Source: Melioribacteraceae bacterium
GTDB lineage: Bacteria > Bacteroidota > Ignavibacteria > Ignavibacteriales > Melioribacteraceae
DNA length: 43,292 nucleotides
Reading direction: 5' to 3'
NCBI GenBank assembly: GCA_027013735.1
Contig: JALWGH010000117.1
Coordinates: 1 to 43,292 of the forward strand
The notes beneath the pieces are model-generated. The model searched no databases. It was not told the origin of the DNA and saw only the letters and a program-made list of their open reading frames with translations. Numbering within the stretch: the stretch's first letter is position 1; each line of letters starts with the position of its first letter. The position numbers and the translations under genes are program-made. This document shows, in pieces, positions 17,225-33,004 of this stretch.

Positions 17225-18445
17225 TTACCAAATCGGAAGTTTGTTCGGGGAAATGGGGCGCATGTATTCGATGCTTGTCTTGAATGCAGTCCGGGAATAA
17301 CCTCTGGATTCGAAAAGGACGTCGAAGTATTCGGGCATGTAGCCGAATTTTTTCTTCATCATTTCTTCGAGATTGTTCAAGTTGTTTTCGTCGAGCATGT
17401 ATTGCGTTGCAACTGAAATGCCCGCCTCGAAGAAAGAAATGAAAAGGTAAATTGTGTTTTTGTTTGGTCCAGGGATTTTTCTGAAAAGACAATAGTCGAT
17501 GTGCTCAAGTCCGGGTTCGCCGGATTGTCTGAAAGTAAGCGTTGTGTCTTTTTCGCGAAAACGGATGTACATATTATCAGGGTCGGAGCTGTATTCGGTT
17601 AGTGTGTCTCTCAACAAATATCGCAAGAAATGTAAACTTCTGAAAGAGCCGAGAAAAATAATGTCGTTCTCCAGCAAATCCGTAGCGGAAAGTTCGGACG
17701 AAGCTTTGAGAATAAGTTTGTCTTTGGCTTTAAGAATTTTAACTAAAATGGGAATCGTTGAAATGTCTATTTTGGGAAAGAAGGGGTAAGGGGTTATTCC
17801 GATTATTTTTTTGTCCGGATGTGCCGCTTTGTATTGTTCGAATTCTTCCTTCGTATTGACGTAGTGCTTTCTTACAATTGTTTCCTCGCCGTCGAGGATT
17901 TCGAGAAAGAATAAGTCGTTGCCCAAAACTATTAGCTTGGGATTTGGTGATTCGGTAATGTTCAACCAGACGGGGTTGTTGACAATATCTGAGGAAGTAG
18001 ATTTCAAAATAGAAAGTTTAATGGAAGAGTAAAATGCAATGCCTGCCAATAGAACCACCAGCCCAACAAGCGACCAGACAATTTTTTTGTTGTACATTCC
18101 CATTACTTTTCTAACTTTTGACGTAGCCGGCACAAATTCGAGTTTGTAATGTCCTTTCGGGATTTTTATTCTGTACTTGTCTTCTTTTCCTTCGTTAGCG
18201 TAGAAATGGTCGAGTTTTTTTCTGAGGTTGCTGGCGTAAACACGGACGGACGAGTCCTCTGCCGGGTTGAAATCCGTGCCTTTGTTAAAAACGTTGATTG
18301 CAATGGTTATTTCTTTCGGGTCTTCGTTTCGCAGGGAAGCTTCGAATAAGTAGGTGAGCAACTTTTTGTAAGTGTCCGAAGATTTGAATCCCTCGGATTC
18401 GAGAATGTTTTCTAATATTTTTCTTTTAGCCTCTTCGGAAAGCAT
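17225..18445 (-). CDS. Membrane-anchored winged-helix (ToxR-like) regulator
   Basis: The 406-residue protein has an N-terminal cytoplasmic domain (about 1-110) with 'ILESEGFKSSDTYKKLLTYL' and 'SSVRVYASNLRKKLDHFY ... YRIKIPKGHYKLEF'. This follows the layout of the OmpR/PhoB-type winged helix ('R..Y...LRKKL', then a hairpin ending in 'KG.Y.LEF') seen in many one-component membrane regulators. One transmembrane helix follows (about 120-143, 'VWSLVGLVVLLAGIAFY'). The 260-residue C-terminal part, probably periplasmic, matches no family I recognise. It is convergent with the sulfatase cluster and may sense a breakdown product and control it; this is inferred from position. A candidate promoter lies just upstream (18,471-18,502). 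Confidence 0.75.
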   Translation of the reverse strand: MLSEEAKRKILENILESEGFKSSDTYKKLLTYLFEASLRNEDPKEITIAINVFNKGTDFNPAEDSSVRVYASNLRKKLDHFYANEGKEDKYRIKIPKGHYKLEFVPATSKVRKVMGMYNKKIVWSLVGLVVLLAGIAFYSSIKLSILKSTSSDIVNNPVWLNITESPNPKLIVLGNDLFFLEILDGEETIVRKHYVNTKEEFEQYKAAHPDKKIIGITPYPFFPKIDISTIPILVKILKAKDKLILKASSELSATDLLENDIIFLGSFRSLHFLRYLLRDTLTEYSSDPDNMYIRFREKDTTLTFRQSGEPGLEHIDYCLFRKIPGPNKNTIYLFISFFEAGISVATQYMLDENNLNNLEEMMKKKFGYMPEYFDVLFESRGYSRTAFKTSIEYMRPISPNKLPIW

Positions 18446-18615: not shown

Positions 18616-18680
18616 AACGAGTTCTCGGAAGACGCTTCCGGATAATTGGATGACAGGGTTTAATTACTAAGTAACAATTA

Positions 18681-18775
18681 TTTTTCTCTGTTCACTGTTA
18701 TTTGTTCTCTTCTTGCGTCTTACCTCTCGCGTCTTACGAAAACATTTCTTATTTCTCGTTTCTTCTTTCTTATTT
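18681..18775 (-). repeat. Modular repeat, left copy (inverted)
   Basis: Read on the - strand, this stretch shares a perfect 32-base block (18,744-18,775) with 22,905-22,936. Later shared words are GTAAGACGC-type and AACARATAACAGTGARCAGAG. The two copies are in opposite orientation and bracket the cytochrome operon. Confidence 0.8.
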
Positions 18776-18781: not shown

Positions 18782-21043
18782 CTATTTTGAGCCCGTACCG
18801 AACAGTTTTGTAATCTTTTCCGAAAGCTTTTTTGCTTTATCGGTCAAATGATTTTTTAAATAGAAGTTTAACAAATTTTCGTAATGCGAATAGTTGTTAG
18901 GCTCTTTGTTTATTGCAATTTTCAAATACTTTTCCGCAAGATTTTTTTTGTTTTGAAAATCGTAAATCATTGCAATGTTGTAATCAATACGTCCGTTGGT
19001 TTTTAATAATTTGCTTGCTTTAATCAAATAATTAAGAGCTTTTTCGTATTTTCTGTTTTCCGCCAAAACAAGTCCGTAGCTGTAAAGCGTTTCGCCGTCA
19101 GCGGGATTTTCGGTTACGTACTCCGCAAGAATTTTTTCCGCTTTTTGCGGCTCTCCGATTGCGTCGTAAAGATGGGCTAAGTTTATTTTAGCGACGTTCA
19201 ACTTGTTGTCTTCTTTAATTGCCTCCAAGTACAATTTCTCTGCTTCGGCAAATTTGCCCGAGCTGTAGTAGAAATTAGCAAGGTTAAATTTCCCGCTGGG
19301 GAAATCCGAATTGTACTTTAGAATTTTAAATTCTTCGGCAAGAGCCTTTTTGTAAGATTTAACAAACTTACGCGGCATCTTGTTTGTGTCGAGCACGCCG
19401 ATTTTATTAATTACCTCGTGGCGAATTCCCTTTACGGGATCGGAAGTTAGTGAGAGCAATTGTGCGAGGTCTCTTTCGTTTCGGACGTCCTTTCTTCTGA
19501 TTGCTGCAATCCGTAAAGGTATTTCGGAGGCATTCAAATAATTGTTAATGAGGCTGTCGTTACTTTTGCTTTCGCTAAGATGTTCAATTGCAATGCCGCG
19601 GATGCTTGCAGGGTACAAAGTGTTTCCAATCATTGAGGTTAAAAGCCGGTCTGTGTTTTTCTTCCCTTTTTCAGCGTCAAAAAAAGCCTCGCCGTATTGG
19701 AATGGGCGGCTATTACCGTACCACTTTTCAATGTAGCTTTCAGCCCATTGCGGGGATTTGTCCGCGTGGCATTGATTGCAAGCATTGGGCACGCCCATTT
19801 TAATTGTCAAATCGGGACGGGGAATTCTGAAGCTGTGGTCGCGGCGGAAATCCACGCCCATATAATTTCTGCCGGGCATGTGGCAATTAATACATTTTGT
19901 TCCCGAGCCGACTTCGTATTTAATTCCCATATCGGAAACAACCGGTTGTCCTTTGCTTCCCTCCGGCTTGTGGAACGTGTGGCGCGGAGTGTCGTAATCT
20001 TCTTTTTTGTGGCATTGCAGGCAGAGGGCGTTTCCATCGTAAAGCAATTTGCCGGAGTGAACGTTGTGGCAGTCGTTGCATTTTACGTCGTTGAGGTACA
20101 TTCTGCTTTGTGTAAAAGAAGCGTAAACGTAATCTTCGTCTTTAATTTGACCGTCAATAAACCAACTCGGTTCTTGAGGGAAAGAGGGGATTACGTGTTG
20201 GTAAATATTTTTAGCTTCGGGTAGGTTGTCGCTCAGCGCCGCTCTTCTTGAGTGGCATCTCGCAGCGCACATGTCAACGTATTCTTTGTTGTCTATTCCG
20301 CTTGTTTTAACCACAAGTCCGTAATTGTCAATTTCCTTTTGGGCGTAGGCGGGTAGTTTTGTCCATTCCAAATGTTTTGAGCCGGGACCGTGGCAGGCTT
20401 CGCAACTAACGTTTATTTCAGAGTAAGTGGTGTTGTAAGAATCGGTTTTGAGGTCGTAATTCTTTTTGACATTTGTGGAATGGCAATCGGCGCACATCGA
20501 GTTCCAATTCTGAGCTTGATTTGTCCAGAACAGCCAATCTTTGTAATCGACGTTTTCGTTTTTGTAAATTGAATCCGGCATGTAATACCAGTTGCTGTCT
20601 TTGCTGTTCCAAGTTAGCGAGAGGGTTTGCAAACGTCCTTTGGGAAAACGTATTAAATATTGTTGCAAGGGGTAATGCCCGAATACGTGGCTGATTTGAA
20701 ACTCGTGCATTTTTCCGTCTTTGCCGGTAGTGTAAACGAAAAACTTTCCGTCCTTTTTGTAAAATTTTGCTTTGATTTTGCCGGAGGTGAAAGTTTGGTT
20801 GTTAAAATTTCCAAGCACGGTGGAATCGTTTGCAACGTTCATTGCCAAGTCGTGATCGGAGCCGACCCAGTCTTCGTATTCTTTGTGGTGGCAGGAAATA
20901 CATTTTTCCTTGCCTACGTAATGTGCTTTTGAGTTGTTGTTTGCGCTGTGAAAAAATATTTTTTTAACGGCAAAGAGAGGCACAATAATGATGATAAAGA
21001 GAATTAGAATTGTTTTTATTGTATCGTTATTTAGCTTTTTCAT
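18782..21043 (-). CDS. Octaheme c-type cytochrome with C-terminal TPR repeats
   Basis: The ATG at 21,043 is preferred to the in-frame TTG at 21,052, giving 753 residues. One N-terminal transmembrane segment ('ILILFIIIIVPLFAV') anchors an exported protein. Eight heme-binding sites are visible: seven CxxCH (CISCH, CADCH, CEACH, CNDCH, CLQCH, CINCH, CNQCH) and one unusual CxxxCH (CAARCH). The middle carries HEAT-like helices ('DPVKGIRHEVINKIG'), and the last 200 residues hold TPR-type repeats ('AEKLYLEAIKEDNKLNVAKINLAHLYDAIG'). It is the third gene of a unit with cytochrome b and Rieske genes, in the place of cytochrome c1, and probably takes electrons from the Rieske protein. The partner downstream is unknown. 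Confidence 0.88.
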   Translation of the reverse strand: MKKLNNDTIKTILILFIIIIVPLFAVKKIFFHSANNNSKAHYVGKEKCISCHHKEYEDWVGSDHDLAMNVANDSTVLGNFNNQTFTSGKIKAKFYKKDGKFFVYTTGKDGKMHEFQISHVFGHYPLQQYLIRFPKGRLQTLSLTWNSKDSNWYYMPDSIYKNENVDYKDWLFWTNQAQNWNSMCADCHSTNVKKNYDLKTDSYNTTYSEINVSCEACHGPGSKHLEWTKLPAYAQKEIDNYGLVVKTSGIDNKEYVDMCAARCHSRRAALSDNLPEAKNIYQHVIPSFPQEPSWFIDGQIKDEDYVYASFTQSRMYLNDVKCNDCHNVHSGKLLYDGNALCLQCHKKEDYDTPRHTFHKPEGSKGQPVVSDMGIKYEVGSGTKCINCHMPGRNYMGVDFRRDHSFRIPRPDLTIKMGVPNACNQCHADKSPQWAESYIEKWYGNSRPFQYGEAFFDAEKGKKNTDRLLTSMIGNTLYPASIRGIAIEHLSESKSNDSLINNYLNASEIPLRIAAIRRKDVRNERDLAQLLSLTSDPVKGIRHEVINKIGVLDTNKMPRKFVKSYKKALAEEFKILKYNSDFPSGKFNLANFYYSSGKFAEAEKLYLEAIKEDNKLNVAKINLAHLYDAIGEPQKAEKILAEYVTENPADGETLYSYGLVLAENRKYEKALNYLIKASKLLKTNGRIDYNIAMIYDFQNKKNLAEKYLKIAINKEPNNYSHYENLLNFYLKNHLTDKAKKLSEKITKLFGTGSK

Positions 21044-21070
21044 TATCGGCAAAATTAAATTGTTAAGGAG

Positions 21071-21496
21071 CTATTTTCTTCTGATTGAATGACCGAGATT
21101 CACAAGAATCTTTCCACGCTTGGTTATTTTTGTTTCGAATAAATCCAACGGGCGTGTTGCAGGCGGTTTAAGGTTAATTCCTTTTTCGTTGAAGATTGAA
21201 CCGTGGCAGGGACATTTGAATTCATCGCCCTTGAATTCAACCGTGCATCCGAGGTGGGTGCATTTGGTCGAAATGGCGGTTACTTTTCCGCTCTCATCTA
21301 TTGACAAATAAAATTTTTGAGCGGCAAAGGGGTAAATTTTCCCTTTGTCGTAGTCGGCTATGTTCCCGGCATCAAACCATTTTTTTGAAGCGTTTCCGGA
21401 AATTTTTTTGTAGCCAAGGACGTCAATAATTCCGTAGAAAAATTCCGCCACGGCGGGAATCAGTAAAAGATATTTTATTGCTTTTCTTCTGTTCAT
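21071..21496 (-). CDS. Rieske [2Fe-2S] protein
   Basis: The 141-residue protein has an N-terminal arginine pair and hydrophobic segment ('MNRRKAIKYLLLIPAVAEFFYG') typical of a Tat-exported or membrane-anchored Rieske subunit. The cluster ligands are complete: 'CTHLGC' and 'CPCHGSIF', about 17 residues apart, with 'PATRPLDLFETKI' as the usual C-terminal strand. It would carry electrons from quinol oxidised at cytochrome b to the multiheme cytochrome. The gene starts 10 bases after the cytochrome b stop and ends 27 bases before the cytochrome c ATG, so the three form an operon. Confidence 0.93.
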   Translation of the reverse strand: MNRRKAIKYLLLIPAVAEFFYGIIDVLGYKKISGNASKKWFDAGNIADYDKGKIYPFAAQKFYLSIDESGKVTAISTKCTHLGCTVEFKGDEFKCPCHGSIFNEKGINLKPPATRPLDLFETKITKRGKILVNLGHSIRRK

Positions 21497-21506
21497 TTTT
21501 GTTGCC

Positions 21507-22778
21507 TTAAAAAATTAGTCTCATTCCGTTTGCCCTTAAAAATGTTGTGGTAAGTCCCATTGTAATGTAGGATGTAAGAATCATTGTAATTATTGCCAAA
21601 GCGGTTTCGGTTTTGTTTGTCTTTTTGAAGCGGAGTAAATAAAAAACAAAACCACCGGCTGGCAGCAAGTAAGCAAGCAGAGGAATAATTCCGTTTACCA
21701 AAAGTACGGGTAAAGAGGTATTGTCTGCATTAAAAAGATATTCGAAGATTAAAATAAGTGTAAAGGAAAGCAGTGCCGCAAAAGCGGCTGAGTAAACAAT
21801 CGCTTGTTTTCCTTTATCCGAATAGAACCAGACTCCGATTTTTTCTTGCTCTATTTTTGTGCGGGATACGTAAATTAAGTAAAGTAAGATTGTAATCGGC
21901 GTTAGGAAAATTGTAAATATCGGATGTACGTTCAATAACATTTCTTGAACTCCGCTGAAATACCACGGGGCTTTAATGTCTGCCGGCGTAATTGCCGGAC
22001 TGGCTTTGCCCAACAGATGTGGCGGAAAGAAGAACGCAAGCAGCAGGACAAAAGCTAAAACGGAAAGGGCGGCAAGTAATTCCCGCGAAGTCAGCTCGGG
22101 ACTTGTTTTTACCTTTTCGGTGCTTTCCTTTGCCGGCAATGTGACGCCGGAATTTGCCCTTACAAGCCAGATGTGAATAACGATAAAAATAAAAATCGTT
22201 AACGGCAAAACGGCGGTGTGTAAATTGTAGAAAAAGAATAGTGTGTTTGCACCGACCTTACTTCCCCCTGCAATAAATTTGGCAATGGGGGCACCGATTA
22301 AAGGTAACATTTTTATTGTGTTTGTTAAAATTGTTATTGCCCAGTAAGAAAGTTGATCCCACGGCAGAGCGTAACCGGTAAAGTTGGATGAAAGAACCAG
22401 TGCAAATAAAACCAAGCCGTAGTAAAAATTTTTACTCCTCTCGTAATAAATTGAATTTGAATAAATAACCCGCACAAAGTGAAGAAATGACGTTACTAAA
22501 AAAATCATTGCACTCCAGTGGTGCGTTGCGTGCAGCAAAGTTCCGAAATAGGTTAATTTCTGAAGATTAACGATTGAATCGTACGCATTTTGTTGTGTGG
22601 GAATGTAGGAAAATCTCAGCAATGTTCCCGTTGAAACGAGAATAAGAAAAAGAAGAATATTAATTCCACCGAGACCGAAAGTTCGTGAAAATTTTAACGA
22701 ATCTTTCTTTACGGAGATTGGATGTAAGTGGAGAAGAAATTCAATTACGACATTTTTGCGGTTGTTTTTTTGAGCCAT
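21507..22778 (-). CDS. Cytochrome b of a bc-type complex
   Basis: The start is placed at the ATG at 22,778 (MAQKNNRK...). An earlier in-frame ATG at 22,976 would add a stretch translated from intergenic repeat. The 423 residues contain about eight or nine transmembrane helices, so the b6-like and subunit-IV-like parts are fused as in bc1-type proteins. Heme ligands are suggested by 'HATHHWSAMIF...FLHF' and 'NLHTAVLPLTIFIFIVIHIW', and 'NFTGYALPWDQLSYWA' is a conserved block. At the quinol site the usual PEWY reads 'APWYF', so the Glu is replaced by Pro. The first gene of the unit with Rieske and octaheme genes. Confidence 0.92.
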   Translation of the reverse strand: MAQKNNRKNVVIEFLLHLHPISVKKDSLKFSRTFGLGGINILLFLILVSTGTLLRFSYIPTQQNAYDSIVNLQKLTYFGTLLHATHHWSAMIFLVTSFLHFVRVIYSNSIYYERSKNFYYGLVLFALVLSSNFTGYALPWDQLSYWAITILTNTIKMLPLIGAPIAKFIAGGSKVGANTLFFFYNLHTAVLPLTIFIFIVIHIWLVRANSGVTLPAKESTEKVKTSPELTSRELLAALSVLAFVLLLAFFFPPHLLGKASPAITPADIKAPWYFSGVQEMLLNVHPIFTIFLTPITILLYLIYVSRTKIEQEKIGVWFYSDKGKQAIVYSAAFAALLSFTLILIFEYLFNADNTSLPVLLVNGIIPLLAYLLPAGGFVFYLLRFKKTNKTETALAIITMILTSYITMGLTTTFLRANGMRLIF

Positions 22779-22904: not shown

Positions 22905-23017
22905 AAATAAGAAAGAAGAAACGAGAAATAAGAAATTTCTTTTCGACAGAGGCGAGACGCTAGACGTAAGACGCAATTTCTCAGTGAATAGTGAACAGAT
23001 AACAGTGAGCAGAGAAA
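22905..23017 (+). repeat. Modular repeat, right copy
   Basis: It begins with the 32-base block (22,905-22,936) identical to the reverse complement of 18,744-18,775. It continues with short related words: GAGACGC/TAGACG/TAAGACGC, then CAGTGAATAGTGAACAGATA and CAGTGAGCAGAG. It lies upstream of the cytochrome operon. Confidence 0.8.
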
Positions 23018-23050
23018 AATTAAGATTGAGGGCTTGCTAAAAGGTGATTT

Positions 23051-23382: not shown

Positions 23383-23457
23383 TGAGAGCGCCTGGGCTTG
23401 AACCAGGAACCCCTCCGACTGAAAGTCGGAGTGCTCTACCACTAAGCTTGTTGGCCT
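23383..23457 (-). pseudogene. Degenerate tRNA (Glu-UUC-like), acceptor stem broken
   Basis: The D arm (GCTT-AGTGGTA-GAGC), an anticodon arm with loop CTTTCAG (anticodon TTC, Glu), the T arm (CCTGG-TTCAAGC-CCAGG) and a 3' acceptor strand CGCTCTC-A are all present. The 5' acceptor strand is not: the bases where GAGAGCG should be read GGCCAAC or AGGCCAA and pair at only one or two positions. The anticodon stem is also 6 bp rather than 5. The T arm and 3' end nearly match the tRNA-Lys at 23,804. The first base adjoins the stop codon of the GIY-YIG gene. It is probably a tRNA remnant or an attachment-site scar; a functional tRNA is less likely. Confidence 0.6.
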
Positions 23458-23741
23458 CAGCTTGTTAACCGGTTGTTATTTTTAATTACCACTTTATGAT
23501 GATGTCTAATATATTCTACTGCTTTTTCGGGACTCTTTAAATTCTTTAATTTTCTCTCTAATCTCCGACCCTCTGATTTATTCTCAACTACACATGCCAC
23601 TTCTATTTCCCACGGAATGCCGTACTTCGTTGCTTTACTTCGTCCTTCGTTGTGTCGGCGGAGTCGTTCTCTCAGGTCTTTTGTCTCGCCAATGTAGTGT
23701 TTGCCTGTTTTTACGGATTTCAGGATGTAAACAAAATGCAT
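23457..23741 (-). CDS. GIY-YIG domain protein (UPF0213/YhbQ-like)
   Basis: The ATG at 23,741 gives 94 residues. The longer in-frame ORF that starts inside tRNA-Lys is rejected because it would translate a tRNA and its terminator. The sequence begins 'MHFVYILKSVKTGKHYIGETKDLRERLRRHNEG', with the GIY-YIG pair as VYI...HYIG and the catalytic-type Arg in 'LRERLRRHN'. 'PWEIEVACVVENKSEGRRLERKLK' holds the conserved Glu. Length fits the small single-domain family of structure-specific nuclease-like proteins, whose cellular role is poorly known. It lies between an intact tRNA-Lys and a broken tRNA that share a 3' end, which suggests it may have arrived with, or taken part in, a recombination event there. 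Confidence 0.82.
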   Translation of the reverse strand: MHFVYILKSVKTGKHYIGETKDLRERLRRHNEGRSKATKYGIPWEIEVACVVENKSEGRRLERKLKNLKSPEKAVEYIRHHHKVVIKNNNRLTS

Positions 23742-23765
23742 TTTGTTTGCCCTATTAAAATAAAA

Positions 23766-23793
23766 AACTCCGATTAAAAATTTAACCGGAGTT
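23766..23793 (-). terminator. Terminator of tRNA-Lys
   Basis: On the - strand ACTCCG (23,792-23,787) and CGGAGT (23,772-23,767) pair, and the stem can extend inward through GTTAA/TTAAT to about 10 bp with a 4-base loop. TTTTTTATTTT follows. It starts 11 bases after the tRNA. Confidence 0.85.
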
Positions 23794-23803
23794 ACTATTT
23801 TTG

Positions 23804-23875
23804 TGAGCGCGCCTGGGCTTGAACCAGGGACCCTCTGCTTAAAAGGCAGATGCTCTACCACTGAGCTACGCGCCC
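23804..23875 (-). tRNA. tRNA-Lys (anticodon UUU)
   Basis: The 72-base cloverleaf is complete: acceptor GGGCGCG / CGCGCTC with one G-U pair, D arm GCTC-AGTGGTA-GAGC, anticodon stem TCTGC/GCAGA with loop CTTTTAA (anticodon TTT), T arm CCTGG-TTCAAGC-CCAGG, discriminator A. CCA is not encoded. A terminator follows at once. Confidence 0.96.
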
Positions 23876-24136: not shown

Positions 24137-26704
24137 ATGCTTAACCAATGGAATGTTTCTAAAAGGGTTTATTTGTGGACCTTTATCATCTCACTAATTC
24201 TTGTTGGTGGAATAATAGTTTATTTTGACCTACCATTACATTTTATTACTATTCTTATTCTGCCAATCTTAACAGCGTTACCCATATTCAAAGACAGAAC
24301 TTACCTCTACTTATTGATTCCCTATTTTGCGGTTGTAGTATTACTTGCTTTCTTTGTTTCGGTTTCTATTTACCATGCAATTATTACTGCCGTTATTCTT
24401 GCATTAACGTTGTTGGTTTTTGGTGAAATAAGCATTTCTTATTTTAATAAAATAAAGAGATTTGAAGAGGAGTTAAAAAGAGGCAAAGATGAGTTTGAAC
24501 GCCTACTTAATCACACTTATGATTGGGAATATTGGATTAAGCCGGACGGCTCGTTTGGTTATTCTTCTCCCTCGTGTGTTTACCAAACAGGTTACACAAA
24601 AGAAGAGTTTATCGCCGACAAAAACTTACTTGCCAAAATTGTTCATCCTGAAGATAAAGAAAAATTTAATGCCCATTGCAAAGAGCTCGACTCAAAAGAA
24701 CCCGGGAAAATAGAATTTAAGATAATTAAAAAAAGCGGTAAGATTAGGGTAATACGCCACACCTGCCAGCCTATCTACGATTCAAATGGTAAATTCATCG
24801 GAAGGAGAGCGACGAACAGAAATGCCACAGACCGCTGGTTAGCCGAGCAAAAATTGAAGGAGAACGAAGAAAAATACAGAAACATTTTTAACTCGCTTAT
24901 TGACGTTTACTACCGCACAACGATGGACGGTACTATTGAATTAGTCAGTCCTTCGGTTGAAAGAATAAGCGGTTACAAGCCGGAGTTTGTGATTGGGAAA
25001 AATGCTGCACTCTTTTACAAAGACAAGAAGGACAGGGAAAAGTTTTTAAAGAAAATTAAAGAAAAAGGGGCTCTTCAAAATTACGAAGTTAAATTTGTTG
25101 ACGCTAAAGGCGAAACAAAGATTTTGTCATTTAATAACAGATTGGTCAAAAACGAAAAAGGCGAACCGGTTGCAATAGAAGGAATTTTACGGGATGTCAC
25201 GGAACTTAAAAAGAAAGAGGAGGCGCTACGCAAAGCGGAATTCCTTGCTCAGGAATATCTTGACATCGCTAACGTAATGATTTTAGCCCTTGACAGGGAA
25301 GCTAACATTACTCTTATCAATCGCAAGGGTGCTGAAATATTAGGCGTTGACCAGAAAGAAATAATCGGTAAAAATTTTAACGATGTGTTTATTTCTCCCG
25401 AAGAAAGAAAAAAAGTAAAAGCCATCTACGAACAACTGATGAATGGAGAAATTGAACTTGCCGATGATTTTGAAAATACAATTACAGTTGGGGATAAAAA
25501 GAAAAGAATTAGTTGGAAGTCAACTTTCTTAAGGGACAAAGAAGGAAAAATAACAGGACTTTTAAGCTCGGGACTTGAAGTAACAAAGGAAAGAGAACTA
25601 CAGGAAGCCCTTGAACGCGAAAGGAATAAATATCGCACATTGTTCGAAAATAGTCTTGCGGGAGTTTACTTGGGCACTCTTGAGGGCGAAATATTGGAAT
25701 GCAACACGGCTCTTGCAAAAATGTTCGGCTACGACGACGCTGAGCAGATGAAGAAAGTTAATGTGGACTCTCTTTATTTTGACCCGAAAAAAAGAGAAGA
25801 AAACATTGCGAAAATTCTGGAAGAAAAAAGTTTGTTCTCCCATGAATTCAAATTGAAGAAAAGGGACGGAACGCCTTTGTGGATACTGGGAAATATTTCT
25901 TTAATAGAGAACAAATATCTCTTGGGCGCTTTGCTCGACATCACCGAGAGGAAGAAAATTGAAATTGAACTTGCGGAATCGGAAAAAGAACTGAGGGAAT
26001 TAAACGAGTCGAAGGACAGGTTTTTCAATATTATTGCGCACGACATTCGCTCTCCTTTCACGGCTCTACTGGGCTACACTCAATTGTTGCTCGATGAATA
26101 CGAGACCAGCAGTAAAGAAGAAATTGGCACCTACGTGGAGGCTTTGTCCCGAACGGCAAATAATATTTTTAAATTTATTGAGGAACTGCTTGAATGGTCG
26201 CGGGCTCAGTCCGGCCGTATTGTGCTTGAGCCGACCACACTTTCCTTACGCAACGAAGTCGAAAACATTGTTTATCTCAATAAAGACGTAGCGGCTCAAA
26301 AAAACGTAAGCATTGAAAATAATGTGCCCGAGGACATATTGGTTGTGTCCGATGAAAACGTTCTCACAACAACTTTACGAAATTTAATTTCCAACGCAAT
26401 TAAATTTACAAATGAAGAGGGACAAATAATTATCACTGCAAACAACAAACACGGAAAGATTGTTGTCAGTGTGAAAGACACGGGTGTTGGTATTTCGCGT
26501 GAGAACTTAAATAGCCTTTTCAAAGTCGGCTCTCATTTCTCCACACCGGGTACAAGGAAAGAAACAGGCTCAGGACTTGGCTTATTGCTTGTGAAAGAAT
26601 TACTCGAAAGGCAAGGCGGTAAAATTTGGGTGGAAAGCGAAGCCGGTAAGGGCAGTACGTTTTATTTTACACTTCCTTTAGCCGACGAAGAAGAAACAAA
26701 ATAA
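24137..26704 (+). CDS. Membrane multi-PAS sensor histidine kinase
   Basis: The 855-residue protein begins with about four transmembrane helices (about 15-110). It then has a series of about four PAS domains between about 120 and 615 ('WEYWIKPDGSFGYSSPSC', 'YYRTTMDGTIELVSPSVERISGY', 'LALDREANITLINRKGAEILG', 'GVYLGTLEGEILECNTALAKMFGY'), and a kinase core. The phosphorylated His is His635 in 'FNIIAHDIRSPFTALLGY'. The ATPase has its N box ('LISNAIKFTN'), G1 ('DTGVGIS') and G2 ('GSGLGLLLVKELL'). No response regulator is next to it, so it is an orphan kinase and its signal is unknown. GGTAGGGAAAT precedes the ATG. It is divergent from tRNA-Lys across a very AT-rich 261-base gap. Confidence 0.93.
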   Translation: MLNQWNVSKRVYLWTFIISLILVGGIIVYFDLPLHFITILILPILTALPIFKDRTYLYLLIPYFAVVVLLAFFVSVSIYHAIITAVILALTLLVFGEISISYFNKIKRFEEELKRGKDEFERLLNHTYDWEYWIKPDGSFGYSSPSCVYQTGYTKEEFIADKNLLAKIVHPEDKEKFNAHCKELDSKEPGKIEFKIIKKSGKIRVIRHTCQPIYDSNGKFIGRRATNRNATDRWLAEQKLKENEEKYRNIFNSLIDVYYRTTMDGTIELVSPSVERISGYKPEFVIGKNAALFYKDKKDREKFLKKIKEKGALQNYEVKFVDAKGETKILSFNNRLVKNEKGEPVAIEGILRDVTELKKKEEALRKAEFLAQEYLDIANVMILALDREANITLINRKGAEILGVDQKEIIGKNFNDVFISPEERKKVKAIYEQLMNGEIELADDFENTITVGDKKKRISWKSTFLRDKEGKITGLLSSGLEVTKERELQEALERERNKYRTLFENSLAGVYLGTLEGEILECNTALAKMFGYDDAEQMKKVNVDSLYFDPKKREENIAKILEEKSLFSHEFKLKKRDGTPLWILGNISLIENKYLLGALLDITERKKIEIELAESEKELRELNESKDRFFNIIAHDIRSPFTALLGYTQLLLDEYETSSKEEIGTYVEALSRTANNIFKFIEELLEWSRAQSGRIVLEPTTLSLRNEVENIVYLNKDVAAQKNVSIENNVPEDILVVSDENVLTTTLRNLISNAIKFTNEEGQIIITANNKHGKIVVSVKDTGVGISRENLNSLFKVGSHFSTPGTRKETGSGLGLLLVKELLERQGGKIWVESEAGKGSTFYFTLPLADEEETK

Positions 26705-26741
26705 ATGTCTGTTTCAAGATTGCCCGAGCTTCCTAATAAGT

Positions 26742-26888
26742 CTTTTGGATAGCTGGATGATTGCATAATTGGATCTTTTGTTTTTATAGTGCAGATTGAT
26801 TAGTCCTCCTTTCGGATTGTTCCGGAGAGTTGAACGTTTTCTCTTAGTCAAATCCATCCATTCCTCCAATCATCCACTCATCCAAGAG
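26742..26888. mobile_element. MITE-like GGAT-rich element, copy 1
   Basis: The left end (CTTTTGGATAGCTGGATGAT...) and the reverse complement of the right end (CTCTTGGATGAGTGGATGAT...) match at 25 of 34 positions, giving terminal inverted repeats around a 147-bp non-coding element. The ends also match those of the element at 30,260-30,378. No transposase is encoded. Confidence 0.65.
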
Positions 26889-26948
26889 AAACGGTTGGGC
26901 AAATGACCAAAAAGATTTCGGAACGTGGATTTAAATCCTGTACGAATT

Positions 26949-26986
26949 TTTAGTGCTAAGGCAATTTAGTATATTTGAACACTAAA
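26949..26986 (+). promoter_or_regulatory. Candidate promoter with three TTTAGT half-sites
   Basis: TATATTTG (26,970-26,977) matches the Bacteroidetes -7 element. TTTAGTG (26,949), TTTAGT (26,965) and the inverted CACTAAA (26,980-26,986) lie around it with their hexamers 16 bases apart. This suggests an operator for the M24 peptidase gene that starts at 27,021. No good -33 TTTG is present. Confidence 0.4.
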
Positions 26987-27020
26987 TAATAAATGACAAA
27001 CAAATTTGTCGAGGTGTAAA

Positions 27021-28211
27021 ATGTCAAAGCAAATGGTTTTGGAAAAAATTTCCCAAGCGGTGGAAATTCTTAAAGAACAAAACGTTGATATGTGGATGAC
27101 TTTTGTAAGGGAAACGGGCAACATAAAAGACCCGATGATGGAAATGATTGTCGGAACTAACGCTACGTGGGAATCGGCTTTTATTATTACCAAGGACGGA
27201 GACACGGACGCAATTGTAGGTTCACTTGAAGTGGCAAACATGGAAGCCGTCGGCACTTACAAAAATATTCACGGCTATTTGAAATCGGTTCAGGACACAC
27301 TACTCGAAGTTCTGAACAAATACAAACCGGAAAAAATAGCCGTCAATTATTCTCAGAATTCAAGTTTGGCGGACGGGCTCACTCACGGAATGTACTTGCA
27401 GTTAATGAAGTATTTGAATGGCACACCTTACGCCGAGAGATTAATTTCTTCGGAAGATATTGTTGCAGCATTGAGAGGGAGAAAATCTCCGACCGAATTG
27501 GAAATAATGAAAGAAGCAATTAGAGAAACGCTATTGATTTTCGACAAAGTTACCGAATTTTTACGCCCGGGAGTTTCGGAAAAAGAAGTTGCCGAGTACG
27601 TTAAAAATATTACGCGGGAAAAAGGATTCGGCTTTGCTTGGGAAGAAGAATACTGTCCTTCCGTTTTTACTGGTCCCGATACCGCCGGAGCGCACTCCGG
27701 TCCTACGGACAGAAAAGTGGAGCGTGGACACGTAATTAACATGGACTTCGGAATTAATTACAAAGGCTACTGCTCGGATTTGCAGCGCACTTGGTACGTA
27801 CTGAGGGAAGGCGAAACCGAACCGCCCGAAGAAGTAATGCGGGGATTCAACACTATTGTTAAGTCAATCGAAATGGCTGCCGAAGCAATTAAGCCGGGCA
27901 AACAAGCGTTTGAAATTGACGCAGTAGCCCGTAATTACATTGTAAGTATGGGCTACGAGGAATACCCGCACGGTTTGGGTCATCAGGTAGGAAGAGCCGC
28001 ACACGACGGCGGCGCTTTGCTTGCACCCAAATGGGAACGTTACGGAAATCTTCCCTACATGCGGCTGGAAGAAGGACAAGTCTTTACAATCGAACCGCGC
28101 CTTACGATTGAAGGCTACGGCATTGCCACAATTGAAGAAGAGGTGGTAATTAGGAAGGACGGTGTTGAATTCCTTTCGCCGCCGCAAAAGGAAATTTACT
28201 TGATTAAATAA
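27021..28211 (+). CDS. M24 family metallopeptidase (Xaa-Pro aminopeptidase-like)
   Basis: The ATG at 27,021 with GAGGTG just upstream is chosen over an earlier TTG, giving 396 residues without a signal peptide. The N-terminal half is a creatinase-type domain ('MWMTFVRETGNIKDPMM'). The C-terminal half is the pita-bread fold, with metal ligands in 'INMDFGINYKGYCSDLQRTW' (two Asp), 'YPHGLGHQVG' (His), 'FTIEPRLTIEGYG' (Glu) and 'ATIEEEVVI' (Glu). The family removes N-terminal residues before proline, or cleaves dipeptides, in the cytoplasm. It is a single gene with its own candidate promoter. Aminopeptidase versus prolidase activity cannot be separated here. Confidence 0.9.
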   Translation: MSKQMVLEKISQAVEILKEQNVDMWMTFVRETGNIKDPMMEMIVGTNATWESAFIITKDGDTDAIVGSLEVANMEAVGTYKNIHGYLKSVQDTLLEVLNKYKPEKIAVNYSQNSSLADGLTHGMYLQLMKYLNGTPYAERLISSEDIVAALRGRKSPTELEIMKEAIRETLLIFDKVTEFLRPGVSEKEVAEYVKNITREKGFGFAWEEEYCPSVFTGPDTAGAHSGPTDRKVERGHVINMDFGINYKGYCSDLQRTWYVLREGETEPPEEVMRGFNTIVKSIEMAAEAIKPGKQAFEIDAVARNYIVSMGYEEYPHGLGHQVGRAAHDGGALLAPKWERYGNLPYMRLEEGQVFTIEPRLTIEGYGIATIEEEVVIRKDGVEFLSPPQKEIYLIK

Positions 28212-28285
28212 AAACGTCTGCGCTCGGGGAAACGAGAAGCGAGGCGGTAATATCATTAAAATCTTAAGTTAACAGGAGAAACAAA

Positions 28286-30169
28286 ATGAAGAAAAAAATA
28301 ATCGGCGCTTTAACCGTTGCGCTCTTATTAGTTGCTTGTCAGGGGCAAAAGCAGAAAGCCGTTAGCCCGATGCAAGTAGTACCGGAAAAACCTCAACAGG
28401 GGCAAAACGTAACGGTGATTTACAATCCTTCCACTACGAATTTGAAAGATGCGAAACAAATTACTGCCACGGTTTACCAATTTAATTGGGAAGTTCAAGA
28501 CGCTCGTGACGTAATTTTAAAGAAGGACGGTGATGTTTGGAAGGGCGAATTCCCTGTTGCCAAAGATGTGTGTGGAATAATAATGAAATTTTCCGACGGC
28601 GACAAAACGGACAACAACAATAAAAAAGGTTACGTAATTCAGGTTTACGACAAAGACGGTAATAAAGTCAAGGGGCTGAAGGCGGGTTTGGCAACAGCTT
28701 ATTTGGGCTGGATTGAAAACCTTGGAATCGATTCCGACAGGAGCAAAGCGTACGAAATGTTCAAGGAAGCTTTTAAGGAAGAGCCTTCGATTAAGAGAGC
28801 TTACATCACAAAATATCTTCCGACTTTAATGCGTGAGGAAAAGGAAAATCCCCAGCAAAAACTTTCCGACGAGTTGGCAAAAGTGGAAAAATACAACAAC
28901 CTTACCGAAGACGAATACGCAATGCTCGTTGACCTTTACAGCCGACTGCAAAACGGCAAGAAGTTTACCAAATACCAGAAGGAAAGCATTGAAAAATATC
29001 CCAAGGGCGAGGTGGCTCAAAAAGCCGAATATCAAAAAATGCTTTCGAATCCTTCCATTAAAAACATTAAAAAGTTTAAGAAAGAATTTCCCGACAGCAA
29101 GTTTCTTGAAGGACTAACTTACAATGCCCTGCGCGCTTTTATTGACAAGAAAGATTTCAAAGGCGCTTACAATTTTATGAAGGAATTAAAAGAAGACATT
29201 CATCCGTTCTACTTCGGTTACGTCGTGGGCAAGATTCTCGATGCAAACGGGAATCTTAAGTTAGCGGAAAAAATCGCCAAGCTTGGTATTGAACGCGGGA
29301 AAGAACAAGCCTCGAAGCCGGACAGTGCCAAGCCAAAATCAATGACGCTTTCCGATTGGCATGAATCGAATAACTATTATTTGGGCAGAAATTATTCCGA
29401 GTACGCAAAAGTGCTTTACGATATGGGTAAAAAGAAAGAAGCGCTTAAAGCCGCTCAGAAGGCAATGGATTTAATTAAAAAAGATTACCGCGACCCGCAA
29501 GCCGTTAAACTTTACGTAAAACTTTTGGTTGAACAAAAACAATTTGCAAAGGCAAAGCAATTTCTCGAAGCGAGCGTTAAAGAAGGAACGGCAGACAGCG
29601 AAATGAAGGAGCTTCTTAAAAAGGCTTACACGGCTTTGAATAAGAGCGATGCCGGTTTTGATGCTTACTTAACCAAGCTCGAGAGCAAAGCCAACGCAAA
29701 AATGATTGAAGACCTCAAAAGCGAAATGATTGACCAACCTGCGCCCGATTTTACGCTTAAAGATTTGGAAGGAAAAGAAGTTAAACTTTCCGACCTTAAG
29801 GGTAAAATAGTTATTGTTGATTTTTGGGCTACTTGGTGCAATCCTTGTCTCAAATCCTTCCCTGGAATGAAAAAATTAGTTGGAAAATACAAGAACGACA
29901 AAGACGTGGCATTTTTGTTTGTGAACACTTGGGAAAGGGTTGACGACAAAGTTAAGAACGCCAAAGGATTTATTTCCAAGAACAACTATCCTTTCCACGT
30001 TTTAATTGACGCCGAAAATAAAGTGGTTTCCTCCTTTAAGGTACAGGGCATTCCCACTAAATTTATTCTCGGTAAAAACGGACACATCAGATTTAAGAGC
30101 GTTGGATTTGACGGCAGCACGGAAAAAATGGTGAGCGAAGTTTTCGCAATGATTGAGATGTTGAAGTAG
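28286..30169 (+). CDS. TlpA/ResA-like thioredoxin lipoprotein with helical repeats
   Basis: The 627-residue protein has a lipoprotein signal (MKKKIIGALTVALLLVAC, Cys18). A beta-rich N-terminal domain (about 25-125) resembles modules found in other Bacteroidetes TlpA-like proteins. A long helical middle (about 130-470) has TPR-like units ('YSEYAKVLYDMGKKKEALKAAQKAMDL'). The C-terminal domain (about 480-627) is a TlpA/AhpC-type thioredoxin: 'APDFTLKDLEGKEVKLSDLKGK', active site W-C-N-P-C, 'VQGIPTKFILGKNGHI' with the cis-proline. It probably acts as a periplasmic disulfide reductase, for example in cytochrome c maturation, but the large N-terminal part is unusual. AGGAG precedes the ATG, and a terminator follows. 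Confidence 0.88.
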   Translation: MKKKIIGALTVALLLVACQGQKQKAVSPMQVVPEKPQQGQNVTVIYNPSTTNLKDAKQITATVYQFNWEVQDARDVILKKDGDVWKGEFPVAKDVCGIIMKFSDGDKTDNNNKKGYVIQVYDKDGNKVKGLKAGLATAYLGWIENLGIDSDRSKAYEMFKEAFKEEPSIKRAYITKYLPTLMREEKENPQQKLSDELAKVEKYNNLTEDEYAMLVDLYSRLQNGKKFTKYQKESIEKYPKGEVAQKAEYQKMLSNPSIKNIKKFKKEFPDSKFLEGLTYNALRAFIDKKDFKGAYNFMKELKEDIHPFYFGYVVGKILDANGNLKLAEKIAKLGIERGKEQASKPDSAKPKSMTLSDWHESNNYYLGRNYSEYAKVLYDMGKKKEALKAAQKAMDLIKKDYRDPQAVKLYVKLLVEQKQFAKAKQFLEASVKEGTADSEMKELLKKAYTALNKSDAGFDAYLTKLESKANAKMIEDLKSEMIDQPAPDFTLKDLEGKEVKLSDLKGKIVIVDFWATWCNPCLKSFPGMKKLVGKYKNDKDVAFLFVNTWERVDDKVKNAKGFISKNNYPFHVLIDAENKVVSSFKVQGIPTKFILGKNGHIRFKSVGFDGSTEKMVSEVFAMIEMLK

Positions 30170-30202
30170 TATTCCTCCTTTTTGACGAGGTTGTTTAAAT
30201 AT

Positions 30203-30240
30203 CGGGAAGGCGAAATGTTGAGCCTTCCCGAGCGTTTTTC
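30203..30240 (+). terminator. Rho-independent terminator of the TlpA-like gene
   Basis: CGGGAAGGC (30,203-30,211) and GCCTTCCCG (30,222-30,230) form a perfect 9-bp stem with a 10-base loop, followed by AGCGTTTTTC. It is 33 bases after the stop codon. Confidence 0.88.
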
Positions 30241-30259
30241 ATTTCGTTCCCAACCGGAA

Positions 30260-30378
30260 TTTTTGCATTGTTGAATTGATGGATTATTGGATTTTTGTAG
30301 CATCGGCTGCTTTGCCTTCTCGCAGTTTGTTAGTGAATGAGGAACATCCAACCATCCACTTATCCAACCATCCAAAAG
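30260..30378. mobile_element. MITE-like GGAT-rich element, copy 2
   Basis: The left end (TTTTTGCATTGTTGAAT...) and the reverse complement of the right end (CTTTTGGATGGTTGGAT...) match at 27 of 38 positions. The element is about 119 bp, non-coding, and its ends resemble those of copy 1 at 26,742. It lies 30 bases beyond a terminator. Confidence 0.65.
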
Positions 30379-30455
30379 TTTAAAAATTATTCTCTGCTTT
30401 GTTTGTAAAAAAGTAGAATTTTCGATAATTTTATTTTGTTAAGCAGAGGATATTA

Positions 30456-30623
30456 TTGGGTAGAGAATTTTTAAAATATTTTGAAACAAAAATTTTACTG
30501 ACGAGGGAAAAAAGAAAAAATATAATATTAAATTCCTTTTCACATGTAGAAAAAACCTTAAAACAAAATACTTTAACGGTTTCACAACGATTAAAAAATT
30601 CACTTGCCGATGCAAGCATTTAA
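30456..30623 (+). CDS. Possible small protein (55 aa) upstream of the KilA-N gene
   Basis: A TTG start with AGAGGA 5 bases upstream opens 55 codons ending in TAA at 30,621. The product is rich in charged and helical residues ('GREFLKYFETKILLTREKRK', 'TLTVSQRLKNSLADASI'), with no signal peptide or transmembrane segment. A 55-codon open frame is longer than expected by chance in such AT-rich DNA. It ends 18 bases before the KilA-N start on the same strand, so the two could form a small operon. I recognise no family. The reverse-strand ORF at the same place is a shadow. Confidence 0.35.
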   Translation: MGREFLKYFETKILLTREKRKNIILNSFSHVEKTLKQNTLTVSQRLKNSLADASI

Positions 30624-30641
30624 AAATTTAGGCTACGAATT

Positions 30642-31481
30642 ATGAGTAAAAAAAGCAAAAAGATAACCGTACAAGGCAGTGAAATAACGGTATTTCAGAA
30701 TGATGATCTCGACTTCATTAGCCTTACGGATATGAGTTCAAATTTTAAAGAAGGAAGTAGCTTAATTGGTAAATGGATAACAAACAAAAATACACTTGAA
30801 TATCTTGGTATTTGGGAAAAAATCAATAACAAGAATTTTAATTACCCCGAATTCGGGGTAATTGAACGAGAAGCCGGGACCAATCGTTTCATAATGTCAG
30901 TAGGACAGTGGATAAAAAGGACTAATGCTATAGGACTAATTGTAAAAGCCGGCAGGTATGGCGGCACTTACGCTCACAAAGATATTGCTTTCCATTTTGC
31001 AATGTGGTTAAGTCCCGAGTTTCAAATTTATGTTGTAAAAGAATTTCAACGACTAAAAGAGCAAGAACAGGGACAACTTGAATGGAATGTAAAACGACAA
31101 CTTACTAAAATCAATTACCATATTCACACAGAAGCTATAAAAGAGAACTTAATACCTAAAAACTTAAGTAAAAAGCAAATAAACTTTGTTTATGCCAATG
31201 AAGCCGATGTGTTAAACGTTGCTCTCTTTGGAAAAACAGCCAAACAATGGCGAGAAGAAAACCCCGACAAAAAAGGCAATATCCGTGATTATGCTAATGT
31301 AACTCAATTAGTTTGTTTGGCAAATTTGGAAAATCTTAATGCAGTATTTATTAATGATGGTTTATCTCAAAGCGAACGATTGGTAAAACTCAATCAAATA
31401 GCCATTAGCCAAATGAAAATCTTGCTTGCCGATACCTCTAACAAAATGTTAAACCCTAAAAACGAGAATACTGGTGAGTAA
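30642..31481 (+). CDS. KilA-N domain protein
   Basis: The 279-residue protein has a KilA-N domain (about 8-140): 'ITVFQNDDLDFISLTDMSSNF', 'LIGKWITNKNTLEYLGIWE', 'GRYGGTYAHKDIAFHFAMWLSPEFQIYVVKEFQRLKE'. The domain is a DNA-binding fold common in phage and mobile-element proteins. The C-terminal half ('ADVLNVALFGKTAKQWREENP', 'LNAVFINDGLSQSERLVKLNQIAI') is the usual companion region of chromosomally encoded KilA-N proteins. The gene is more AT-rich in third positions than its neighbours and stands next to a MITE-like element, so it was probably acquired. No phage genes accompany it. A role as regulator or in defence is possible but not shown. Confidence 0.88.
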   Translation: MSKKSKKITVQGSEITVFQNDDLDFISLTDMSSNFKEGSSLIGKWITNKNTLEYLGIWEKINNKNFNYPEFGVIEREAGTNRFIMSVGQWIKRTNAIGLIVKAGRYGGTYAHKDIAFHFAMWLSPEFQIYVVKEFQRLKEQEQGQLEWNVKRQLTKINYHIHTEAIKENLIPKNLSKKQINFVYANEADVLNVALFGKTAKQWREENPDKKGNIRDYANVTQLVCLANLENLNAVFINDGLSQSERLVKLNQIAISQMKILLADTSNKMLNPKNENTGE

Positions 31482-31668
31482 TTATAAGCGATTAGGGGGT
31501 TTTATCCTCTTTTTTCCCTCTTGCCCTCTATTTATGGGACTTTCATATCTTTCAGCATGCCCTAAGTAAACATTCCTCAAATTTTATTCCCCTCACGCCT
31601 CTTTTTATTTTAAATTTTCGTAGATTTAAATTTTACTTGAAATAATTGTCTTAAAACTACGGAATCCA

Positions 31669-32247
31669 ATGAGTCATTTTCTTTATTCCATTGATGTTGA
31701 GGTTTTTCGGTTTCTGAACCAAGCAATTGCCAATCCGGTAACGGACAAATTTTTTACCTACATTACAATCTTAAATCACTGGGTAATTGCTTACGTTATT
31801 CTTATTGGAATTCTTTGGTTCAAAGGCGGACGACTTGGAAAACTCTCGGTGCTGGGAATTTTGCTAACTATTTTGGTCTCGGACCAGTTAAGCAGTCATT
31901 TGTTAAAAAATTTGTTCGAACGTGTTCGCCCGTGCAATGCATTGGAAAACGTGAGGATTTTAGTGCCATGCTTAGGCTCTTACTCGATGCCGTCATCGCA
32001 CGCGGTAAACAACTTTGCGGCAGCGGCGTTCTTCGGCGGACTTTACCCGAAGTACAAAACCGTTCTCTACTCAACCGCAACGCTGATTGCACTCTCACGT
32101 CCGATTGTCGGCGTTCATTATCCGTCCGATATTTTGGTTGGAGCTGTTATCGGCTGGATTGTTGGATTCTTGTTCTTTAAATTAACTCTTGAAATTTACG
32201 AAAGGTATTTGAATGAAAACAAAAGCAGAATTACAAAGGAAACTTGA
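31669..32247 (+). CDS. PAP2-family membrane phosphatase
   Basis: The 192-residue protein has about five transmembrane helices and the three-part PAP2 signature: 'KNLFERVRPC' (K-x6-RP), 'PSSHAVN' (PSxH) and 'SRPIVGVHYPSDI' (SR-x5-H-x3-D). Such enzymes dephosphorylate lipid phosphates such as undecaprenyl pyrophosphate or phosphatidic acid at the membrane. The stop codon is 35 bases inside the next gene, so the two are probably translated together, although the neighbour acts on nucleotides. Which lipid it uses is unknown. Confidence 0.9.
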   Translation: MSHFLYSIDVEVFRFLNQAIANPVTDKFFTYITILNHWVIAYVILIGILWFKGGRLGKLSVLGILLTILVSDQLSSHLLKNLFERVRPCNALENVRILVPCLGSYSMPSSHAVNNFAAAAFFGGLYPKYKTVLYSTATLIALSRPIVGVHYPSDILVGAVIGWIVGFLFFKLTLEIYERYLNENKSRITKET

Positions 32248-33004
32248 AATAGCCAAAGATTGGCTGCCCCGTTACACCGGCACGGAAATAGACGATTTCG
32301 GCGATTACCTGTTGTTAACCAACTTCCAGAATTACGTTGAAAAATTTGCCGAAAAATTTAATTGTAACATTAACGGTTTAAACAGACCAATGCCCTCGGC
32401 AACAAACTCTTCAGGGCTTTCAATAATTAACTTCGGAATAGGTTCGGCAAATGCGGCAACGATAATGGATTTGCTGGCGGCAAAAAATCCGAAAGGGGTT
32501 TTGTTTCTCGGCAAATGCGGGGGACTAAAAAAGTCAACAGAAATAGGACATTTCATTCTTCCCATTGCCGCTATTCGAGGAGAAGGAACGAGCAACGACT
32601 ACTACCCGCCGGAAGTTCCCGCTCTGCCTTCATTTAAATTGCACAAATTCGTTTCAAACAAAATTACGGCGCGACAAATGGAATACCGCACCGGCGTGGT
32701 TTACACAACCAACAGACGGCTCTGGGAGTGGGACGAATCATTTAAAAAATATCTCAGAAAAATCGGCGCAATCGGAATAGACATGGAAACCGCTACTTTG
32801 TTCATCGTGGGTTACGCAAACGAAATTGCCCGAGGCGCCTTGCTGCTTGTTTCCGACCTGCCGATGATTCCCGAAGGCGTTAAGACGGAAAAGTCGGACA
32901 GATACGTTACAAAAAAATTTGTTGACCTGCACCTTGAAATCGGCATTGAGGCAATGACGGAAATCGGGACGAAAGGTGAGAAGATTAAGCATTTCCAATA
33001 TTGA
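32213..33004 (+). CDS. amn: AMP nucleosidase, short form
   Basis: The 263-residue protein resembles the short AMP nucleosidases of Bacteroidetes: 'IINFGIGSANAATIMDLLA', 'GVLFLGKCGGLKKSTEIGHFILP', 'AIRGEGTSNDYYPPEVPALPSF' and 'IGIDMETATLFIVGYAN', the last holding the nucleosidase-type Glu (MET). The enzyme cleaves AMP to adenine and ribose 5-phosphate in the cytoplasm and belongs to the purine-nucleoside-phosphorylase fold. It lacks the N-terminal regulatory domain of the long Escherichia coli form. It overlaps the PAP2 gene by 35 bases in another frame. Confidence 0.9.
   Translation: MKTKAELQRKLEIAKDWLPRYTGTEIDDFGDYLLLTNFQNYVEKFAEKFNCNINGLNRPMPSATNSSGLSIINFGIGSANAATIMDLLAAKNPKGVLFLGKCGGLKKSTEIGHFILPIAAIRGEGTSNDYYPPEVPALPSFKLHKFVSNKITARQMEYRTGVVYTTNRRLWEWDESFKKYLRKIGAIGIDMETATLFIVGYANEIARGALLLVSDLPMIPEGVKTEKSDRYVTKKFVDLHLEIGIEAMTEIGTKGEKIKHFQY

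Follow-up and report, generated by a model that had tools for sequence, protein, structure and literature searches.

A three-gene operon on the minus strand of contig JALWGH010000117.1 from a Melioribacteraceae bacterium (22778–18782 of the 43,292-nucleotide stretch analyzed, hereafter the window) encodes, in transcription order, a cytochrome b, a Rieske protein and an octahaem cytochrome c with HEAT-like and TPR repeats. We consider it reasonably probable that this trio forms a three-subunit, quinol-oxidizing Rieske/cytochrome b complex in which the octahaem protein carries electrons to acceptors other than O2. The genes are separated by only 10 nucleotides (nt) (cytochrome b to Rieske) and 27 nt (Rieske to octahaem); their products match Cytochrome_B (PF00033, 3e-39), Rieske (PF00355) and, for the third, Cytochrome_C554 (3e-14) with paired CXXCH motifs and TPR (PF14559) (Table 1). 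An initial annotation had read here a tight operon for cytochrome b, Rieske and an eight-haem cytochrome with HEAT-like and TPR repeats. All three genes are indeed present where it placed them, eight c-haem motifs are found against a mean of 0.026 in the shuffled protein, and, besides the TPR match, the HEAT-like stretch is helical in the structural model, with HEAT_2 detected in relatives.

The two upstream genes encode the core of a bc-type complex. Cytochrome b is not split into b6 and subunit IV; it is a single 423-residue polypeptide aligning to ExtP plus ExtQ, and its halves are best matched by these two NCBIfam profiles (201 bits and 27 bits, respectively), the former score lying under the ExtP cut-off of 290. 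Both profiles are matched by all 28 cytochrome b orthologues (best ExtP E-value 1e-84). The haem-ligand histidines H86/H100 and H187/H202, spaced 14 and 15 residues apart, are invariant in these 28 sequences; the helix-D histidines of cytochrome b6 are likewise 15 apart. The chain has no Cys at all, which excludes a covalent haem ci, and no Cys is conserved among the orthologues. At the Qo site the motif is APWY, where bc1 and b6f complexes have PEWY; APWY is common to related Rieske/cytochrome b complexes with tri-haem partners and is therefore not special to the octahaem complex. The adjoining Rieske gene retains the cluster ligands (CTHLGC...CPCHGS), although its product lacks the C-terminal FxKSQxTY tail present in relatives. 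The trio thus has the cytochrome b and Rieske protein of a bc complex, and neither the c1 subunit of bc1 nor the haem ci and split b6/subunit IV of b6f. No cytochrome c1-like (mono- or dihaem) protein is encoded in the operon; PF02167 was not searched genome-wide.

This arrangement is conserved well beyond the window. When GTDB species genomes were searched with the haem domain of the octahaem as query, 80 loci emerged, 8 of them cut by contig ends; in 70 of the 72 with upstream room, Rieske and cytochrome b lie directly upstream of the octahaem gene in the same order and on the same strand. The hosts belong to at least four phyla (Bacteroidota, Ignavibacteriota, Calditrichota and Desulfobacterota) and include Melioribacteraceae, Ignavibacteriaceae, Marinilabiliaceae/Marinifilaceae/Prolixibacteraceae, Calditrichota and Desulfobacterales. 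Many are sediment Bacteroidota and Desulfobacterota, and some are cultured (Marinifilum, Labilibaculum, Carboxylicivirga, Marinilabilia). When all neighboring genes were clustered, no other family proved conserved in more than about a dozen loci; the module therefore comprises exactly three genes. As a guard against bait bias, the search was also run in reverse, querying 297 Desulfobacterota genomes with cytochrome b. It gave seven matches at 589–656 bits, with Rieske and octahaem next to cytochrome b in 6/6 loci with room and the seventh at a contig end. At an intermediate 378–398 bits, both loci with intact neighbors have Rieske and then octahaem (a third is broken), and at about 312–335 bits the partner is a tri-haem cytochrome in a different gene order. 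Among 396 genomes of the window's phylum, module-type cytochrome b occurs only in the two that bear the operon (565–655 bits; next 276).

The three proteins are also inherited together. Tree distances among octahaem, cytochrome b and Rieske are correlated (r = 0.87, 0.81 and 0.90), values that none of 1000 label permutations reached. In a quick octahaem tree, for which no root was inferred and in which some branches are long, 76/76 operon octahaems fall into one clade of 85 rows (Shimodaira–Hasegawa-like approximate likelihood ratio test, 99), which includes four standalone copies as well; the remaining 25 standalone copies are placed outside it. Moreover, the type of anchor, lipid or membrane helix, tracks complex membership: all 75 operon proteins start with a hydrophobic helix and lack any Cys ahead of haem 1, whereas the leader ends in a lipobox-like Cys in 27 of 29 standalone octahaems (one masked by the start codon chosen), and the two without it, L015 and L081, fall inside the operon clade. 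Taken together, the congruent trees, a membrane anchor specific to the operon forms and a gene order kept across four phyla support the octahaem as a predicted subunit at the place of cytochrome c1/f, and in this respect the initial annotation holds. Its further suggestion, that the TPR extension is a docking platform, is not supported as a trait particular to this complex: standalone octahaem lipoproteins are common and keep the same invariant haem-domain residues and the same HEAT/TPR tail. The tail therefore belongs to the octahaem family rather than to the complex, and we rejected TPR as a diagnostic of complex-specific docking.

The haem domain itself resembles a known terminal reductase. 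Seven of its motifs are CxxCH and one is CxxxCH (CAARCH, haem 4), the latter a one-residue insert in the window protein whose nearest relative reads CARCH. A 79-sequence haem-domain profile retrieves OcwA from the PDB (6I5B, 3e-24), and also multihaem cytochrome cf, c554, MccA and NrfA. Since TPR proteins swamped the full-length fold search, the haem domain was modeled separately with AlphaFold2 (predicted local distance difference test score, 91); a Foldseek search of the PDB with this model gives OcwA as the sole significant match (E-value 1.3e-13; template modeling (TM) scores 0.62/0.53). Strands 40–113 of the model form a beta domain between haems 1 and 2. In OcwA, the beta domain spans residues 75–156 and is shared with MccA; haems 1, 3, 4, 6, 7 and 8 are bis-His ligated, haem 9 is His/Met, and the open haems 2 and 5 bind substrate (PMC6703420). 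The octahaem family has no counterpart of OcwA haem 5, as is also the case in MccA. Beyond the haem motifs, exactly six His are invariant in the 79 homologues, each aligned to an OcwA His. Eight haems and only six such His suggest an OcwA/MccA-type ligation with one haem probably open and, by homology, this is probably haem 2, whose distal side would lack a His. A near-invariant DGQI..E.YV..SF.QS.M block occupies, by sequence order, the position of the OcwA haem-2 HH pair; no OcwA-type HH is found between haems 4 and 5 in the octahaem family, and a conserved Met could instead fill the open-haem site. In MccA sulfite reductase the copper site needs a Cys beyond the haem motifs, and in NrfA nitrite reductase the active-site haem carries a CxxCK motif. 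The 79 homologues conserve no Cys outside the haem motifs, and hence no MccA-type copper-site Cys; all eight motifs of the octahaem end in CH, with no NrfA-type CxxCK.

As a finding that would speak against it, the initial annotation had named a second bc complex, of standard type, encoded at another place in the genome. We find none: the window genome has one Rieske gene, one cytochrome b and, as regards an alternative complex III, no NrfD marker (PF03916, ActC/ActF-type). Its sole COX1-family gene encodes a quinol nitric oxide (NO) reductase, and no O2-reducing haem-copper oxidase was found (bd oxidase was not searched for), so a haem-copper cytochrome oxidase is unlikely to be the electron sink in this genome. 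Cytochrome c oxidase was rejected as the sink, as several other operon genomes also lack an O2-type COX1. NrfA is absent from the window genome, and it was rejected as an obligate partner because genomes G000, G037, G464, G465, G467 and G469 lack it. On contig C90 (locus L011, 811–4738), a gene cluster encodes a candidate outer-membrane or extracellular electron conduit, made up of a c554-like tetrahaem protein, a porin-like barrel, a cytochrome with 14 haems and a haem lipoprotein bearing a CxxxxCH-type motif. The same type of porin occurs in operon-bearing G003, G037 and G464; as a universal partner, however, such a conduit was ruled out, being restricted among operon genomes to Ignavibacteria.

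A quinol-oxidizing core joined to a membrane-anchored, OcwA-shaped octahaem implies that electrons probably leave the quinone pool through the octahaem to non-oxygen acceptors. We envision that the three subunits assemble into one complex in which quinol, presumably menaquinol, would be oxidized at the APWY-type Qo site. In the Q-cycle that we infer, one electron would be recycled via the two b haems and the other would pass through the mobile Rieske head to the OcwA-fold octahaem, tethered by its own N-terminal helix at the place of cytochrome c1/f. From there, the haem chain would lead electrons off the membrane to redox partners in the periplasm and to non-O2 acceptors of low to middle potential, with a possible exit in the window genome through the porin–cytochrome cluster on contig C90.

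Several observations weigh against this account. The window has an unremarkable octahaem beside an unusually divergent cytochrome b and Rieske protein: the terminal branches of the latter two measure 1.1 and 1.35 against a median of 0.21, and 15 of 98 conserved columns in cytochrome b and 5 of 33 in Rieske are altered, the most of any aligned member, so the copy in the window may have changed or may be evolving under relaxed constraint, even though all metal ligands of both proteins are retained. NrfA is not a constant companion of the operon, although many operon-bearing genomes have it, and no C90-type porin is present in those operon-bearing Bacteroidales, Calditrichota and Desulfobacterota that were tested, which means that this exit is not a general one. 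Finally, four standalone octahaems (L015, L016, L050 and L081) sit inside the operon clade, which means that the octahaem can exist without the complex. Most simply read, the tree reflects a single recruitment into the complex, at which the anchor changed; several copies then left the complex again, and some of these (L016, L050) reacquired a lipobox.

The main rival to an electron-carrying octahaem, possible but on the doubtful side, is a terminal-reductase role for the octahaem itself: the Q-cycle core would directly feed an attached OcwA/MccA-type enzyme, at whose open haem 2 a small, soluble acceptor would be reduced, be it nitrite, hydroxylamine, NO, or a sulfur or metal species. The OcwA-like haem domain of the model thus suggests a function that the initial annotation did not contain. 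OcwA, the only significant fold match, reduces nitrite besides metals as a terminal reductase; the six invariant His match those of OcwA and leave haem 2 without one, with OcwA haem 5 missing; the DGQI..E.Y..SF.QS block is invariant where OcwA has its haem-2 HH pair in sequence order; the same residues are kept in the standalone octahaems; and the window genome has neither NrfA nor O2-reducing haem-copper oxidases. Ligation, however, is read here from sequence, and the vacant position could be occupied by the haem domain's invariant Met residues (142, 274 and 354); an OcwA-type HH and an MccA-type extra copper Cys are both lacking, and NrfA also occurs in many operon-bearing genomes. Tentatively, and with rather low probability, a Q-cycle complex with a terminal reductase as its c-type subunit would constitute a self-contained, energy-conserving quinol:acceptor reductase, encoded by three genes that move between phyla.

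The divergence of the window copy could also mean that its quinol part is decaying, en route to a standalone octahaem. An accelerated cytochrome b and Rieske beside a normal octahaem, together with descendants in the operon clade that now stand alone (L015, L016, L050), would fit such a course, which we nevertheless hold to be unlikely, given open reading frames and fully intact metal ligands. Still less probable is mere co-transcription, with the octahaem an independent periplasmic cytochrome whose gene accompanies the quinol-oxidizing cytochrome b–Rieske pair but whose product is no fixed part of the complex. In favor of this, octahaems often occur as standalone lipoproteins, and the operon clade includes four standalone copies, but the contrast between a transmembrane anchor in 75/75 operon proteins and a lipobox in 27/29 standalone ones argues for a subunit, as do a trio kept across phyla with no other neighbor, the tree congruence and the lack of another c1/f candidate in the operon. 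We regard as very improbable a reversed complex that acts as a quinone reductase on electrons supplied by periplasmic or extracellular donors: the operon is not linked to any lithotrophy gene, and its named cultured hosts are organotrophs. Multihaem quinone-reactive proteins of the CbcL/MtoC kind have, on the other hand, been proposed to be bidirectional (PMC6295460).

Table 1 Operon features in window coordinates
Feature	Position	Strand	Evidence or remark
Cytochrome b, fused b6 + subunit-IV type, 423 aa	21507..22778	(-)	Nearest named ExtP/ExtQ; ATG 22778, stop 21507
Qo-site motif (K)APWYF, at PEWY position	21957..21974	(-)	(Near-)invariant in orthologues
Rieske [2Fe-2S] protein, 141 aa, N-terminal anchor	21071..21496	(-)	PF00355 4.6e-11; CTHLGC, CPCHGS
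Octahaem cytochrome c: OcwA-like haem domain + HEAT-like + TPR repeats	18782..21043	(-)	ATG 21043
Octahaem N-terminal transmembrane anchor, replaces lipoprotein signal	20954..21037	(-)	Model helix 2-29
Haem 1, CISCH	20888..20902	(-)	
Beta-sheet domain, haems 1-2 interval	20582..20803	(-)	As in OcwA and MccA
Haem 2, CADCH	20480..20494	(-)	Aligned to open substrate-binding OcwA haem 2
Haem 3, CEACH	20390..20404	(-)	
Haem 4, CAARCH	20252..20269	(-)	CxxxCH; relatives CARCH
Block DGQIxxExYVxxSFxQSxM, haems 4-5 interval, near-invariant	20099..20155	(-)	Candidate open-haem pocket; core 92-100% conserved in 79 homologues, operon and standalone
Haem 5, CNDCH	20066..20080	(-)	= OcwA haem 6
Haem 6, CLQCH	20009..20023	(-)	= OcwA haem 7
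Haem 7, CINCH	19880..19894	(-)	= OcwA haem 8
Haem 8, CNQCH	19766..19780	(-)	= OcwA haem 9, there His/Met
HEAT-like helical region	19400..19753	(-)	Model; HEAT_2 in relatives
C-terminal TPR array	18800..19372	(-)	PF14559 1.6e-14

The window copy clusters with the Bacteroidales loci L044, L045 and L048, apart from two other intact Melioribacteraceae operons, and the operon is missing from two genomes of the same genus. Synteny with one same-genus genome (G072) holds over 24434–34300 and breaks between 24434 and a tRNA-Lys at 23875, with the operon beyond the breakpoint. This break beside the operon makes lateral gain by the window genome likely, rather than demonstrated. Contamination of the contig was ruled out, since a neighboring gene has a 92%-identical counterpart in the same genus and its matches rank by kinship. 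About 350 nt from the tRNA-Lys (23803–23875) lies a partial second tRNA (23391–23448; Rfam tRNA, 30.3 bits, model positions 9–63), and an open reading frame for a GIY-YIG endonuclease (23457–23861) stands between the two, a possible tRNA-linked insertion site. An inverted pair of intergenic repeats (18680–18775 and 22905–23020) flanks the operon. These were considered and rejected as ends of a mobile element or transposon; further copies are scattered over contigs C90 and C39 and the sister genome G072, which makes the repeat a dispersed element. Downstream of the octahaem gene, 17225–18445 encodes a Pfam-negative protein of 406 residues whose N-terminal part resembles a DNA-binding regulator domain.

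Other loci show further variation. In one Desulfobacterota genome (L203), a related cytochrome b is followed by a 362-residue, 7-haem protein, another swap of partner. Some genomes carry two module copies each (L056/L064 and L083/L087, in Bacteroidales SZUA-609 and Sunxiuqinia indica), and in SZUA-609 the cytochrome b branches of both copies are long. Sulfatase genes adjoin octahaem genes, operon-borne and standalone, in several phyla (L107, L108, L124–L126, L192, L194), a weak link with 0.9 signatures per 100 kb and no established enrichment over background.

Many anaerobes are thought to pass menaquinol electrons to multihaem cytochromes via quinol dehydrogenases that do not conserve energy. 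If the trio functions as a quinol-oxidizing complex with an electron-carrying octahaem, a compact and widespread module would offer such organisms a proton-moving route to non-oxygen acceptors. It would also make an older suggestion, which is cited in PMC5317091, that early bc complexes used multihaem acceptors, testable in the laboratory.

In the open-access literature we found no description of the three-gene module or of its OcwA-like subunit; subscription papers were outside the scope, and priority is uncertain. The closest named cytochrome b family, ExtP, belongs to the Geobacter ext cluster, which likewise combines it with a Rieske protein (ExtO) and multihaem cytochromes (ExtM/N) and has been linked to selenite, tellurite and Fe(III) (PMC5877670). 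Here, in contrast, ExtP and ExtQ are fused, the score falls under the ExtP cut-off, the module has no porin or rhodanese, and a single octahaem-TPR partner stands where ext has 12- and 10-haem proteins (PMC5877670). The anammox complexes Kuste4569-4574 and Kustd1480-1485 also carry a hexa- or octahaem protein at the cytochrome f place next to a b6f-like cytochrome b, but they have a split cytochrome b, an additional NAD(P) reductase and, in one case, an HAO-type subunit, and their c subunits show little similarity even to one another (PMC12954380). The Rieske/cytochrome b complex of Methanoperedens similarly couples quinol oxidation to a multihaem exit, yet keeps a c1/f-like gene and has two pentahaem proteins and more subunits (PMC4683180). 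For the nap-cluster Rieske/cytochrome b pair of Caldithrix abyssi, from a related phylum, which also lacks c1, a multihaem acceptor has been suggested (PMC5317091); the trio in a C. abyssi metagenome-assembled genome (L096) differs in not adjoining nap genes.

As for the octahaem, OcwA of Thermincola (PDB 6I5B, PMC6703420) shares the haem-domain fold (TM 0.62), the beta domain between haems 1 and 2 and six bis-His positions, but has nine haems, two open sites with HH pairs, a cell-surface location, no Rieske/cytochrome b partner and no TPR. The octahaem sulfite reductase MccA (PDB 4RKM) has the same presumed haem set (OcwA haems 1–4 and 6–9), whereas our family lacks its conserved extra copper Cys and matches it with a weak profile score (4e-5). 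The standalone octahaem-HEAT/TPR lipoproteins of the same phylum have the same haem domain, invariant residues and tail, and differ in their lipoprotein anchor and in having neither cytochrome b nor Rieske nearby. Multihaem partners of Rieske/cytochrome b are thus already known from anammox bacteria, Methanoperedens and Geobacter ext, and the octahaem module is a further variant.

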